DNA of 64,000 bases, from positions 1 to 64,000 of the forward strand of contig JAQWFH010000003.1 of the NCBI GenBank assembly GCA_028704515.1, in the 5' to 3' direction. The position numbers and the translations under genes are program-made. Numbering within the stretch: position 1 is the first letter of the stretch; the number at the start of each line of letters is the position of its first letter. Source of the DNA: Eubacteriales bacterium (GTDB lineage Bacteria > Bacillota > Clostridia > Peptostreptococcales > Anaerovoracaceae). Positions 12,193 to 15,843 of this stretch are shown piece after piece. The notes beneath the pieces were generated by a model. The model did no database searches. It was not told where the DNA came from and worked only from the letters and a program-made list of their open reading frames with translations.

Positions 12193-12712
12193 TATACTCC
12201 TCTCTAGTAATACCATATTTATTTAATTTCGTGAGAAATGCCGAGGCATTGCCATACCCTATCCCGAGAATTTCTCCGAGTGCGCTTCGCCTCTGCGAGG
12301 CGTTATTCTTATCAGTGAGCCCTCCTTCAACGAGATCTCTTTGAATAAATTCATTATAAACTTCTTCCTTTGTGCACCTTGCCTTTTCCAAGGCCTTTGA
12401 AATAGCTTCCGGAGAAGCATTTTCAATTCCTATATCTCCATTTCGCTCAGCCTCCTTGACGCTGAGGAAAGCTTCTTTTGCACCGGGAAATCTTGCCTTT
12501 ACTTTCTTCCTTATCTCATTGCCTGAAAAATCGGGGTCTGTAAATATTATAATTCCGCGCATATTTGCGGCGTTTTCAATCAGCTGCCAGGTTATTTTTT
12601 TGATACCAAAGCCATGTGTTTCTATAGTATCGGTGTTAACCGCTCTTTTTATAGCCGCCGTATCGTTGCGGCCCTCTACAATAATCACTTCTTTAATAGT
12701 TTTATTCTTCAT
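12161..12712 (-). CDS. rnmV: Ribonuclease M5
   Basis: Toprim-domain nuclease that matures 5S rRNA; 183 aa. The Toprim motifs are VEGRND (residues 13-18) and FTDPDFSGNEIR (about 56-67). The C-terminal domain, with VEGGLTDKNNASQRR, is typical of RNase M5. It overlaps the end of divIC by 11 bp and the start of rsmA by 32 bp, within a densely packed operon. Confidence 0.93.
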   Translation of the reverse strand: MKNKTIKEVIIVEGRNDTAAIKRAVNTDTIETHGFGIKKITWQLIENAANMRGIIIFTDPDFSGNEIRKKVKARFPGAKEAFLSVKEAERNGDIGIENASPEAISKALEKARCTKEEVYNEFIQRDLVEGGLTDKNNASQRRSALGEILGIGYGNASAFLTKLNKYGITREEYNEALRKINDK

Positions 12713-13199
12713 CTTTTATCTTTTCTTTTCCTTCGGTATCCTCTTCTAAATTAGTTTCCGAAAAAATATAAAGTACCTCCCCGGGCCTTACTAATCTTAG
12801 TTGCGTTCTTGCTTGCGCTTCTATATATTCGGGATTATTAACCTCCTCAAGCTGTTTCTCAAGCTTAATTTTCATCGCCGCAAGCTCTGCGTTTTGCTGT
12901 TGAATCTTCGCTCTCTCAGCTCTAAGCGATACTATGTTAATCAAAGAGGCACTTACAAGCACAACAACGCCGAGAAGAATGGCTATATATGCCCAACGCC
13001 TTCTTTTCTTTCTGATCTTTTTGCGCTGTGTAACATTGCCTTCCGGTTCATAAAATTTTTCCTCCTCAAGCAAACCAGCCGAATCACTGGAATCCTTCAA
13101 GCTCTTTCTTTTTGAACGTCTCTCTTTTCTTGCTTCCGATATGTTCACTACCTGCGAATTCTTCTTGAATTCGCGGCTTCTTCTTCTTTTCTTAAGCAC
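12702..13199 (-). CDS. divIC: Septum formation initiator, DivIC/FtsB family
   Basis: Small bitopic division protein. A strongly basic cytoplasmic region (KKRRRSREFKK, RRSKRKS, RKKIRKKRRRW) precedes one membrane segment (YIAILLGVVVLVSASLI), then an extracellular coiled coil with YIEAQARTQLRLVRPGEVLYIF, the conserved DivIC end. The GTG at 13199 is chosen because GAGGG lies seven bases upstream; an in-frame ATG at 13262 has no ribosome site and starts inside a duplicated segment. It acts in the divisome at mid-cell. It lies between yabQ and rnmV, the gene order of sporulating Firmicutes. Confidence 0.85.
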   Translation of the reverse strand: MLKKRRRSREFKKNSQVVNISEARKERRSKRKSLKDSSDSAGLLEEEKFYEPEGNVTQRKKIRKKRRRWAYIAILLGVVVLVSASLINIVSLRAERAKIQQQNAELAAMKIKLEKQLEEVNNPEYIEAQARTQLRLVRPGEVLYIFSETNLEEDTEGKEKIKDEE

Positions 13200-13230
13200 G
13201 GTGAGGCCCTCTTCCCTGCGTATAGGGATC

Positions 13231-13355
13231 AATTTTGTTACATTTGTGCGTTTATTTATCATCAGTGCAAGTCGTTGATGCGGCTTGCTTCACAACGATA
13301 CAATGAACGCATCCGAGACAAAATTTGTTAATTTTGTTACATTTGTGCGTTTATT
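13231..13355. repeat. 26-bp direct repeat spanning yabQ end and divIC upstream region
   Basis: Positions 13231-13256 and 13330-13355 are identical over 26 bp (AATTTTGTTACATTTG followed by TGCGTTTATT), with a period of 99 bp. One copy forms the yabQ stop region; the other is read in a different frame as the possible divIC N-terminus. It looks like a local duplication. Confidence 0.85.
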
Positions 13356-13678
13356 ATAACATAAAAGATTTTTTTCCACAACAAAACCCCTGCGACAAAG
13401 GATATAAACGCATGAAACGTAATTTTACCATAACAGCAGTAATAAAGAAAGGAAAATGCAGCAACGGCAACAGTGGTAAAAAATACAATTTCTCCTACCC
13501 ATTCCAAGGAAATATTGATTGCTTTTTTCACCTTTTCTTTTTTTTGGCTTTTATCTATTCGCATTTTAATCGATGTTATGAATGCATCATAAACATCTCT
13601 AATAATGCCGGCAAGAACACCTGCGGCAAGCATTATTATACACTCATATATCTGACTTTGTATCAGCTCTGTCAACAC
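13337..13678 (-). CDS. yabQ: Spore cortex biosynthesis protein YabQ
   Basis: Integral membrane protein of 113 aa with hydrophobic segments near residues 10-30, 60-80 and 90-108, and the family-typical start (LIQSQIYECIIMLAAGVLAGIIRDVYDAF). In Bacillus subtilis YabQ is made in the mother cell, localises to the outer forespore membrane and is needed for cortex formation. It starts with GTG one base after the yabP stop, so the two are coupled. Its presence points to a spore-forming lineage. Confidence 0.85.
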   Translation of the reverse strand: MLTELIQSQIYECIIMLAAGVLAGIIRDVYDAFITSIKMRIDKSQKKEKVKKAINISLEWVGEIVFFTTVAVAAFSFLYYCCYGKITFHAFISFVAGVLLWKKIFYVIINAQM

Positions 13679-13679
13679 G

Positions 13680-13940
13680 TTATCTCAAGAGACGCTTCCT
13701 AAAGCTCCCCTGCTCCTTATCTTTTTTATGAGTGTACACGACAGAGTTTATACTCCCGTTTACAGAAATTTTTCCCTCAGCCAAATCGAGCTTTTGAATG
13801 TTAAGCTTTTCGCCTTTTACCTCAAGATTACCCTGCGCCAAAACAATCATTATCTTTTCCTCATTAAAAGTTGAAACATCCTTTACTGCCGTAACTGTAA
13901 GTCTTTCCCTGTTATCAATGCTAAGAACATGATTATCCAT
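13680..13940 (-). CDS. yabP: Sporulation protein YabP
   Basis: Beta-rich 86-aa protein of the YabP/YqfC family with the typical LSIDNRERLTVTAVKDVSTFNEEKI opening and LAQGNLEVKGEKLNIQKLDL centre. It forms a pair with yabQ. The ATG at 13940 is preceded by AAAGGGGG and a run of T; this ribosome site lies in the right arm of a strong hairpin (13948-13988). A sigma-E-like promoter overlaps the left arm, which fits mother-cell expression. Confidence 0.88.
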   Translation of the reverse strand: MDNHVLSIDNRERLTVTAVKDVSTFNEEKIMIVLAQGNLEVKGEKLNIQKLDLAEGKISVNGSINSVVYTHKKDKEQGSFRKRLLR

Positions 13941-13947
13941 AAAAAAT

Positions 13948-13996
13948 CCCCCTTTCCACATATTGCATTATATGTGTTAAAAGGGGGGTATTATTC
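13948..13996 (-). promoter_or_regulatory. Terminator-like hairpin and sigma-E-like promoter before yabP
   Basis: On the minus strand CCCCCCTTTTAACACATAT pairs with ATATGTGGAAAGGGGG and is followed by ATTTTTT and the yabP ATG, so the yabP ribosome site is in the stem. Overlapping the left arm is GAATAAT (13996-13990), a 15-bp spacer and CATATAAT (13974-13967), close to the sigma-E consensus. A transcript from it would lack the left arm. Confidence 0.6.
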
Positions 13997-14007
13997 TTTA
14001 TTATTTG

Positions 14008-15843
14008 TTACTCTATATTTGGTGTTCCTCTACTCATCCTTGGCGCAACGGGCAGTATGATTGTCACTCTGGTGCCCTTGCCCTCCTTGCTGTCAAGCTC
14101 TATGCTTCCTCCATGGTTTTCCATAATTTGCTTTGATATGGAAAGACCGAGTCCCGTACCTCCCATATCTCTGGCTCTTGCCTTGTCTATACGGAAAAAT
14201 CGCTCAAATACCCTCGCAAGCTCGCTCTCCGGTATCCCTATACCGTTATCGGTAACAGTAATTCGGGCCTCTTTGCCGACAACAAAGGCGTCGATATCTA
14301 TTCTCCCGCCGTCTTGCGTGTATTTTATTGCGTTTGATATGATATTGAGAATTACCTGCTCTATTCTGTCCCTTTGCATTACAACATATATGAGCTTGTT
14401 TGCGTCAAAAAGGCAATTCACCTTCTGGTTCTTAGCTGCGGCAGTCAATTCAATATTTCTGATTACATTGGAAAGCAGGAGTATTATATTCCCTTCATTC
14501 ATGATTAAACTGTCCTGGTGGCTCTCCATTCTGAATAGCTGGAGCAGATCTTTGACAAGCCTGTTCATGCGATCTGTTTCCGCATCTATTATTTCGAGGA
14601 ATTGCTTTTCAATTTCCAAGTCGACCGAAACCGTGTCAAGGAGCGTTTCTGTATAGCTTTTGATTGTAGTCAGAGGGGTCTTCAATTCGTGAGAAACGTT
14701 AACCACAAAATCCATCTGCATTTTTTCCGACTTTATTCTCTGAGTTATATCCTGAATAATCATTATAACTCCTATTTCTATGCCGTTCTCATCCCTAAAT
14801 CTGTCAAATCTCATATCGTAGGTGTTGCCCCCGACTTCAAAAATTTCATTGTCGGCCCCCGCAATGCACCTCTCCTTCAGGTTTTCAAGGCCTAGATCCG
14901 GGTTGAAGGAAAGCATAAGCGAATCGTAATCCTCATTTCCTATTTGATCGCTAATAGGCTTCAATATCCTTATAGCCGCTTCATTGATATGAATTATTTT
15001 ACCGGAAAGATCGACTGCAAGCAGTCCGTCAGCCATATGCCTTAGCACTGTTTCAAGTTTATTTTTTTCTCCCGCAATCTGAGAAACGGCATCGTCGAGT
15101 CGCAGACGAAGGTGATTAAACATCTCTGCGAGGCGACCGATTTCATCGTCCGATTTTGCCTTTATCTCCTCTGAAAAGTCACCTGTCGACATCTTCTCGG
15201 CTCTTTCGGTCAAGTCATTTATTGGTTCGGTAATGCTCTTGGATATTAAATAACTTAAGAGGAAGGTGACGAACAAGCCTATCATCATGGCTCTCACCAA
15301 TATTTTCTTGGATTGATCCATGGCGTCCTGTGTTGAGCTCATATCCGCTCTTAGGTAAAGAATCCCATCAGTTTGTTTTTCTGCAGATTTTATAGGAAAC
15401 ACCATGCTCATCACAGGTATTTCACTACCCCCGGAAACAATGTGCCCCTGCGCTTGGCCGGTTTTCCCCGAAAGCGCGTAAAGCAGAAGCCCGTTGTCAA
15501 GGATACCCACAGCGCTCCTGCCCCTGTTTGCATTATTTGATGCGACGATTTGTAAATCTCCGTCTATTACAAAAATCTCTTGTGGAAGCGTTTTTGTCCA
15601 AGCCTCTACATTTGCCTGAATCTCTTCCTTGTTTTCTTGAAGCGGGAGCAACGTCGAAAGAGAAGTCATCAATGTTCCTTCTGTGACAGTCTTTTCCATA
15701 TTTGTACGCACAGAACTGACATAGTACTCTTCTAGTTGGTTGAGTAAAAAAACTCCGATAATCGTTGTTGCCAAAAAGACGAGCATACAATAAAGCAGTA
15801 TTATTTTCCACTGTATGCTTTGTCCCGCTTTTCTTATTTTCAT
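14008..15843 (-). CDS. walK: WalK-type sensor histidine kinase
   Basis: Membrane histidine kinase of 611 aa. A first membrane helix (about residues 13-32), an extracellular sensor domain of roughly 150 residues and a second helix (about 185-203) are followed by HAMP (KSITEPINDLTERAEKMSTGDF), PAS (LRHMADGLLAVDLSGKI), the phospho-acceptor box VSHELKTPLTTIKSY, and ATPase motifs NIISNAIKYT, DNGIGI and GGTGLGLSI. Architecture and origin-proximal position match WalK/YycG, which controls cell-wall turnover. It follows walR by 4 bp. The yycH, yycI and yycJ genes that follow in Bacillus are replaced here by yabP and yabQ. Confidence 0.85.
   Translation of the reverse strand: MKIRKAGQSIQWKIILLYCMLVFLATTIIGVFLLNQLEEYYVSSVRTNMEKTVTEGTLMTSLSTLLPLQENKEEIQANVEAWTKTLPQEIFVIDGDLQIVASNNANRGRSAVGILDNGLLLYALSGKTGQAQGHIVSGGSEIPVMSMVFPIKSAEKQTDGILYLRADMSSTQDAMDQSKKILVRAMMIGLFVTFLLSYLISKSITEPINDLTERAEKMSTGDFSEEIKAKSDDEIGRLAEMFNHLRLRLDDAVSQIAGEKNKLETVLRHMADGLLAVDLSGKIIHINEAAIRILKPISDQIGNEDYDSLMLSFNPDLGLENLKERCIAGADNEIFEVGGNTYDMRFDRFRDENGIEIGVIMIIQDITQRIKSEKMQMDFVVNVSHELKTPLTTIKSYTETLLDTVSVDLEIEKQFLEIIDAETDRMNRLVKDLLQLFRMESHQDSLIMNEGNIILLLSNVIRNIELTAAAKNQKVNCLFDANKLIYVVMQRDRIEQVILNIISNAIKYTQDGGRIDIDAFVVGKEARITVTDNGIGIPESELARVFERFFRIDKARARDMGGTGLGLSISKQIMENHGGSIELDSKEGKGTRVTIILPVAPRMSRGTPNIE

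Follow-up and report, generated by a model that had tools for sequence, protein, structure and literature searches.

In phage T4, early read-through RNAs of I-TevI, e, soc, 49 and segB fold over the ribosome-binding site (RBS), as do those of Aeh1 mobE, and at I-TevI a nearby late promoter gives a translated RNA from which part of the structure is missing (PMC2988022; PMC3014915). These late genes and homing endonucleases share with the locus described here the start-site-dependent closure of the RBS. However, they are phage genes rather than a chromosomal set of developmental genes, and in the excerpts available of these reports they are not described as terminators with a promoter in the loop (PMC2988022; PMC3014915). 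In the case of Bacillus subtilis sigG (spoIIIG), a large hairpin has been proposed to block translation of the read-through RNA from PspoIIG, and it cannot form in the RNA from PsigG (PMC5942855). Both the process, sporulation, and the read-through lock are shared with our element. The sigG case as given in the excerpted source, however, concerns one gene, lies behind an operon that is itself a spore operon and is described as translational, whereas the layout reported below involves several genes, housekeeping genes upstream, a U-tract and a -10 element within the hairpin. Intrinsic (Rho-independent) terminators are likewise made of a GC-rich stem followed by a T-run behind a gene, but in our element the right arm is the Shine-Dalgarno (SD) sequence of the next gene, the tail is the spacer between SD and start codon, and the terminator score is low; in the nested hairpins at large, the loop or left arm carries the promoter of the next gene. 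In IS10 and IS50, transcripts entering from outside fold over the transposase RBS while RNA from the element's own promoter does not, but these are mobile elements with no nested developmental promoter. The yabPQ genes are controlled by SigE in B. subtilis, according to the part of the report available (PMC517825); the yabP gene studied here has a motif resembling the SigE consensus, and this motif lies inside a terminator/RBS hairpin behind walK. Among the matches listed in a search of the openly licensed PMC literature, no title dealt with promoters nested in terminator/RBS hairpins at Clostridia spore genes. Start-site-gated logic as such is already known from phage T4 and B. subtilis sigG, and it is the multi-gene version that is new.

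The window, by which we mean the whole stretch of 64,000 nucleotides that was analysed, comes from a Eubacteriales bacterium of the family Anaerovoracaceae with a genome of 1.93 Mb (1,932,765 bases) in 78 contigs, in which a SigE gene is present (TIGR02835, 385 bits, over the cut-off). The features of the locus are as follows.

14008..15843, minus strand: walK-like sensor kinase gene, its last codons and TAA stop directly upstream of the hairpin element
14010-14008, minus strand: TAA stop of the walK-like gene, read from the sequence
13996-13991, minus strand: -35-like element GAATAA of a putative SigE-type promoter, from the sequence
13987-13979, minus strand: left arm of the hairpin, CCCCCTTTT (anti-SD), from the fold; inside the promoter spacer
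13974-13967, minus strand: -10-like element CATATAAT, from motif search and fold; its CATAT part belongs to the inner stem and its AAT to the loop
13970-13976 with 13957-13963, minus strand: inner stem with a loop of 6 nt, from the fold
13960, minus strand: predicted start of the SigE RNA, placed by spacing 7 nt past the -10 (+/- 2); this RNA would lack the left arm
13956-13948, minus strand: right arm GAAAGGGGG, holding the Shine-Dalgarno sequence AAAGGGGG, from sequence and fold
13946-13941, minus strand: T6 tract, both terminator-like tail and SD-ATG spacer, from the sequence
13680..13940, minus strand: yabP, ATG at 13940; YabP profile TIGR02892 over the cut-off
13337..13678, minus strand: yabQ, the gene after yabP (PF09578, TIGR02893)
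12702..13262, minus strand: divIC/ftsL-like gene, after yabQ (PF04977)

The top profile of the walK-like gene is HK_WalK (NF033092), yet its score is under the cut-off (493 vs 725 bits). The closest named relative of YabP among the matches listed is that of Firmicutes bacterium UBA1440 (87%), others being from Clostridium aminobutyricum, Anaerovorax odorimutans and Sinanaerobacter.

An earlier note on this DNA had proposed a strong hairpin that buries the yabP ribosome site and is followed by T residues, and it had placed it correctly. On the minus strand a hairpin occupies 13939-14001, with the yabP SD buried in its stem and T6 following. The segment 13930-14010 has a minimum free energy of -24.3 kcal/mol as against -11.8 (sd 2.75) for shuffled sequences (z -4.5), with none of 200 shuffles as good, and the predicted fold of a 301-nt read-through RNA still contains the hairpin. 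The sigma-E-like promoter that the note saw overlapping the left part was recovered as the pair GAATAA-N16-CATATAAT in the left half of the hairpin, with the left arm within the spacer and the -10 divided between inner stem and loop. Since the promoter sits in this left half, an RNA beginning near 13960 would be unable to form the hairpin: in the predicted fold the hairpin is absent and folding is no better than that of shuffles (z 0.85), and the predicted cost of opening the SD drops from 16.4 kcal/mol in the long RNA to 1.4 kcal/mol. This agrees with the note's view that such an RNA lacks the left arm and leaves the SD free, as does our own estimate of the start; the promoter matches the consensus, and motif position and fold fit a predicted start beyond the left arm. 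By these folding predictions the element would behave as a start-site-dependent RBS lock, the SD being closed by the hairpin in RNA from upstream promoters. A known Rfam RNA family was rejected as an identity for the element, as both matches (23.9/50 and 21.8/47 bits) fall under the gathering score and no others were found above it. A second in-frame ATG occurs at 13961 (MWKGGFF), 7 codons upstream of the yabP ATG, inside the inner stem and at the predicted transcript start, from which a leaderless or near-leaderless start of yabP may be possible.

The yabP loci of relatives had three sources: a set of 61 genomes, 22 of which contributed, a set of 296 family genomes, 83 of which contributed, and 20 titled loci. 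After dropping 38 duplicates, many of which were one and the same place, the 132 loci yielded 94 distinct upstream regions, including 11 from members of the order beyond the family. A seeded motif search of these 94 regions recovered GCATATACTT together with an upstream G(T/G)(T/C)ATAA, which resembles what we take to be the SigE consensus. The SigE-like -10 motif scores above 6 in 80/94 yabP upstream regions, the -35 in these being supported by sequence and upstream composition, and with the same matrix in 109/864 background genes. When the seeded search was repeated on randomly drawn background upstream regions, in 10 sets of 94 each, 21-32 per set scored above 6. The spacing between the two elements is 16 nt in the window, the mode among yabP relatives being 15. 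The agreement with the presumed consensus, the spacing and the conservation across orthologues point to a SigE-dependent promoter, its -35 being assigned by composition.

An SD-opening cost of at least 8 kcal/mol is found in 38 of the 94 yabP upstream regions, whereas 22 reach it among 816 control genes taken from 61 stretches; gene calls for these controls, as for the scan of the window's own genome below, were simple open reading frame (ORF) calls with starts picked by SD. We term a locus fused if SD opening costs at least 7 kcal/mol and the 6-base window before the start holds at least 5 T. By this definition 23/94 yabP loci are fused, the window's own included, among them those of Anaerovorax odorimutans DSM 5092 (L120) and Sinanaerobacter chloroacetimidivorans (L126) and 2/11 order-level loci (L015, L018). 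The overlap of promoter and hairpin, whose conservation the earlier note had put forward as a check, is kept in part of the family and in the same genus, where locus L004 has an opening cost of 17.2 kcal/mol and, with only 4 T, falls outside the fused count. In 21/23 fused loci, opening the SD in RNA from the predicted SigE start would cost 0.1-5.5 kcal/mol. The best motif match lies upstream of the hairpin in L018 and L051, with a second -10-like site inside it by eye, and in 11/23 fused loci the predicted start leaves 11-12 nt, cutting into the SD. A walK gene is upstream in 17/23 fused and 12/71 non-fused loci (p 9e-7, too small given that the species are related). Between promoter and upstream gene, a distinct terminator was found in 1/23 fused as against 27/71 non-fused loci (p 0.0015, weakened by kinship), so that fused members are nearly always without one; in 44/71 non-fused loci the same search found neither the fused element nor a separate terminator.

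A blind scan ranked by SD opening covered 871 called genes on 985,864 bases (51%) of the window's own genome. Eight of them pass with an opening cost of at least 7 kcal/mol and at least 5 T, comprising six sporulation-family genes, a transpeptidase and a probably false ORF that has no Pfam match and overlaps other frames. The six are the yabP gene of the window and those for SpoIIGA (PF03419; TIGR02854 under the cut-off), SpoIIAA (STAS; TIGR02886 at 112 vs 114.75 bits), PdaA (TIGR02884), SpoIVA (TIGR02836) and CotJA (PF11007); the transpeptidase, a penicillin-binding protein, has sub-cut-off matches to PBP2 and SpoVD. Genes upstream in the same direction encode ribosomal protein L20 (spoIIGA), ThiI (spoIIAA), a MiaB-like radical-SAM/TRAM protein (spoIVA), the walK-like kinase (yabP), a DUF1015 protein (transpeptidase) and an F420-ligase-like protein (pdaA), while for cotJA, which also passes the filter, no clear neighbour in the same direction was seen. 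A tie of the element to walRK alone was rejected, as the same layout is present at spoIIGA, spoIIAA and spoIVA. The common -10 pattern lies inside the hairpin in 5/7 of these spore-type genes, the exceptions being pdaA and the transpeptidase.

Upstream of pdaA (L185:2246-3064), which is SigG-controlled in B. subtilis, a SigE-like pair GACATAA-N15-AGTATATT with the left arm in its spacer was noted by eye. Upstream of the PBP2/SpoVD-like transpeptidase (L155:15685), behind the DUF1015 gene, TGAATA-N15-GAGCAAAAT extends across a AACTCCTT/AAGGAGTT hairpin that has 7 T in a row, and presumably resembles a forespore (SigF/SigG) promoter. A gene for a 69-aa protein with no family match (L141:6233-6439, minus strand, contig C16), behind a same-direction GNAT acetyltransferase gene, has an SD-opening cost of 15.1 kcal/mol, 3 T only and CATAATACT after the left arm; it is a candidate unknown spore gene. 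Partly closed SDs with T-rich spacers were seen at two genes of spore-coat type, cotJA (L194:18177) and a SafA-like LysM gene (L193:14104-14454), at 8.3 and 7.7 kcal/mol. In the organism's own sigE-sigG gap a possible hairpin near the SD was seen by eye, but not the nested layout of promoter and hairpin.

The promoters nested in these hairpins differ from gene to gene. At spoIIGA of the same genome the left arm fills the spacer of TTGACA-N21-TATAAT, a spacing that we take to be like the long spacing of the Spo0A-activated spoIIG promoter of B. subtilis. At spoIIAA an AAGGACA...TATAAT pair lies between the arms, and spoIVA has GCATATT-N14-AATATACT. Presumably the first two are sigma-A-like and the last SigE-like, and on this labelling promoters of different classes would appear to share one layout.

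For comparison across species the best 30 loci of 58, 58 and 59 positive genomes were taken for spoIIGA, spoIIAA and spoIVA, respectively, sets that lean to close relatives; the spoIVA locus L230, and L302 of the class-level spoIIGA search described below, were left out as having no usable start. Of these best-scoring loci, own genome included, 21/30 are fused at spoIIGA, 15/30 at spoIIAA and 11/29 at spoIVA. With opening of at least 10 kcal/mol the counts are 21, 13 and 9, and other thresholds likewise shift them modestly. The non-fused loci number 71/94 at yabP, 9/30 at spoIIGA, 15/30 at spoIIAA and 18/29 at spoIVA. The gene-specific -10 lies between the SD and its pairing partner in 67/70 fused cases of the four genes, against a background, using the combined pattern, of 22/101 SD-paired genes with opening of at least 5 kcal/mol. 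The arms also belong together species by species. Over all loci, own arms pair at -14.5 kcal/mol as against -11.0 for species-permuted arms at spoIIGA, -10.6 against -8.6 at yabP, -10.1 against -9.0 at spoIVA and -11.5 against -10.2 at spoIIAA, with 0 of 5000 permutations as strong at yabP and spoIIGA and 1 each at spoIVA and spoIIAA. Among the fused loci, which is partly circular as these were chosen for pairing, the numbers are 0 for yabP, spoIIGA and spoIVA and 1 for spoIIAA.

Gene context was also compared with the layout; the species in all these tests are related and the p values are too small for that reason. Where L20 is upstream of spoIIGA, 17/20 loci are fused, as against 4/10 in which no L20 was found (p 0.03); L236 and L260 have L20 upstream in the same direction. 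For thiI upstream of spoIIAA the figures are 14/23 and 1/7 without it (p 0.08), and for miaB upstream of spoIVA 7/10 and 4/19 (p 0.017). A same-direction ORF within 250 nt upstream is present in 45/47 fused and 32/42 non-fused loci of spoIIGA, spoIIAA and spoIVA pooled (p 0.011), the same comparison for each of these genes singly being non-significant (p 0.2, 0.3 and 0.6).

A class-level search for spoIIGA gave 28 new loci outside the family from 166 positive genomes, 27 of them evaluable. Two of the 27 are fused (L301, L306), both from a single other family within the class; the fused layout is uncommon outside the family, and our claim is confined to the family. By eye, the -10 of a third spoIIGA locus of that other family (L296) falls within the loop of a terminator-like hairpin whose stem does not include the SD, an arrangement of promoter and terminator that has no RBS lock. 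Among the Anaerovoracaceae genomes searched, yabP was found in 83/296, spoIVA in 59/197, and spoIIGA and spoIIAA in 58/197 each (28-30%), by eye largely the same genomes, which suggests repeated loss of sporulation in the family.

The arms might pair merely by chance, C-rich spacers meeting G-rich SDs, and alignments (MAFFT) indeed show changes on both sides in just 1/5 pairs in A3 and 3/5 in A4, with broken cells in most pairs. The alignment covariation is weak because the arms shift between species, for which reason arms were permuted instead, and in view of the permutation result, of the 22/816 control genes at the same threshold and of own-genome matches that are nearly all spore-type genes, chance is hardly credible. 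It is also very improbable that the palindrome acts as DNA, binding a protein such as a repressor of the spore promoter, rather than as an RNA element: L005, L031 and L236 do contain perfect or near-perfect inverted repeats around the -10, but the arm sequences vary by gene and species while pairing is kept, the U-tract and the SD position go with the arms, and the same layout recurs at promoters apparently of different classes.

Two other alternatives turn on whether the hairpin terminates transcription or closes the RBS. It might be the terminator of the housekeeping operon and nothing else, the promoter and RBS overlapping it through the shortness of the intergenic space and the closure of the RBS being an effectless by-product. 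This would fit the housekeeping nature of the upstream genes in the window's genome, the geometry of L296 and the way in which the U-tract tracks the hairpin (present in 24/60 yabP loci with opening of at least 5 kcal/mol and 1/34 below), but termination does not need the SD as right arm, the yabP loci L008, L021, L027 and L030 have the SD hairpin without a U-tract and the window copy is poor as a terminator by score; such simple compaction is possible, though we doubt it. The terminator score d of the window copy is -18.6, and a terminator scan with a loop limit of 8 returned no terminator-like site at this element, on account of which the terminator side appears weaker here than in many relatives. 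This might be taken to mean that no real termination occurs and that read-through RNA is made with a closed RBS, as in T4 I-TevI. The A before the T-run, the long hairpin and the walK stop just 20 nt ahead of the left arm agree with that, and a terminator several base pairs behind a gene reportedly loses nearly all function, according to the excerpted source (PMC4824070). Yet the strong association of U-tract and hairpin in yabP relatives speaks against it, as does the score d, which exceeds 0 in 14/23 fused yabP loci, 0/71 non-fused loci and 1/150 random genes, a difference partly built into a fused class defined by opening and U-count; a pure translational lock is accordingly unlikely. Given the terminator scores on the one hand and, on the other, the loci whose SD hairpin lacks a U-tract, a double action of termination and lock, in shares varying by locus, is favoured, the lock being perhaps the more important of the two in the window copy.

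The reading we prefer, and judge to be probably correct on the sequence evidence, is that terminator, promoter and RBS lock are fused in this element into a gene boundary insulating spore genes from read-through. A polymerase that enters from the housekeeping gene, which is walK-like at this locus, would transcribe the whole hairpin, which with its U-tract would end part of the read-through RNAs and in the remainder would hold the yabP Shine-Dalgarno sequence closed. During sporulation, SigE polymerase would bind the promoter whose -10 lies within the hairpin and begin its RNA past the left arm, in which neither terminator nor lock could form, so that yabP would be translated. The same nesting at other housekeeping-to-spore boundaries of the family, with other promoter types, would let the start site decide translatability, and production of the spore protein may depend on the start point alone. 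The logic of the earlier note, with read-through RNA locked and spore RNA free, is, at the level of sequence, well supported by the fold, the relatives, the arm pairing and the other spore genes. Its emphasis on translation has to be tempered, as silencing may be largely transcriptional given that 14 of the 23 fused yabP elements also score as terminators; and the layout that it describes at yabP is one case of a layout common to several spore genes.

We infer a wider rule, towards which we lean with some reserve: in this family, spore genes behind a housekeeping gene would have their promoter, of whichever sigma class, nested in the terminator/RBS hairpin at the end of the housekeeping operon, and the choice of promoter alone would decide whether the RNA is completed and translated. 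The rule covers the operons of the first compartment-specific sigma factors, spoIIGA-sigE behind L20, and spoIIAA with its sigma gene behind thiI. At non-homologous loci within a single genome, the roles of terminator, promoter and ribosome-site lock seem to be combined in one compact sequence, which suggests how small genomes silence spore genes directly downstream of highly expressed ones, a ribosomal protein operon for instance. Programs that look for terminators and promoters as separate parts can miss such boundaries, as the terminator scan did here, and the arrangement offers a design for insulated, start-site-gated expression. If the rule is true, the genome itself would protect these organisms from entering sporulation by accident.
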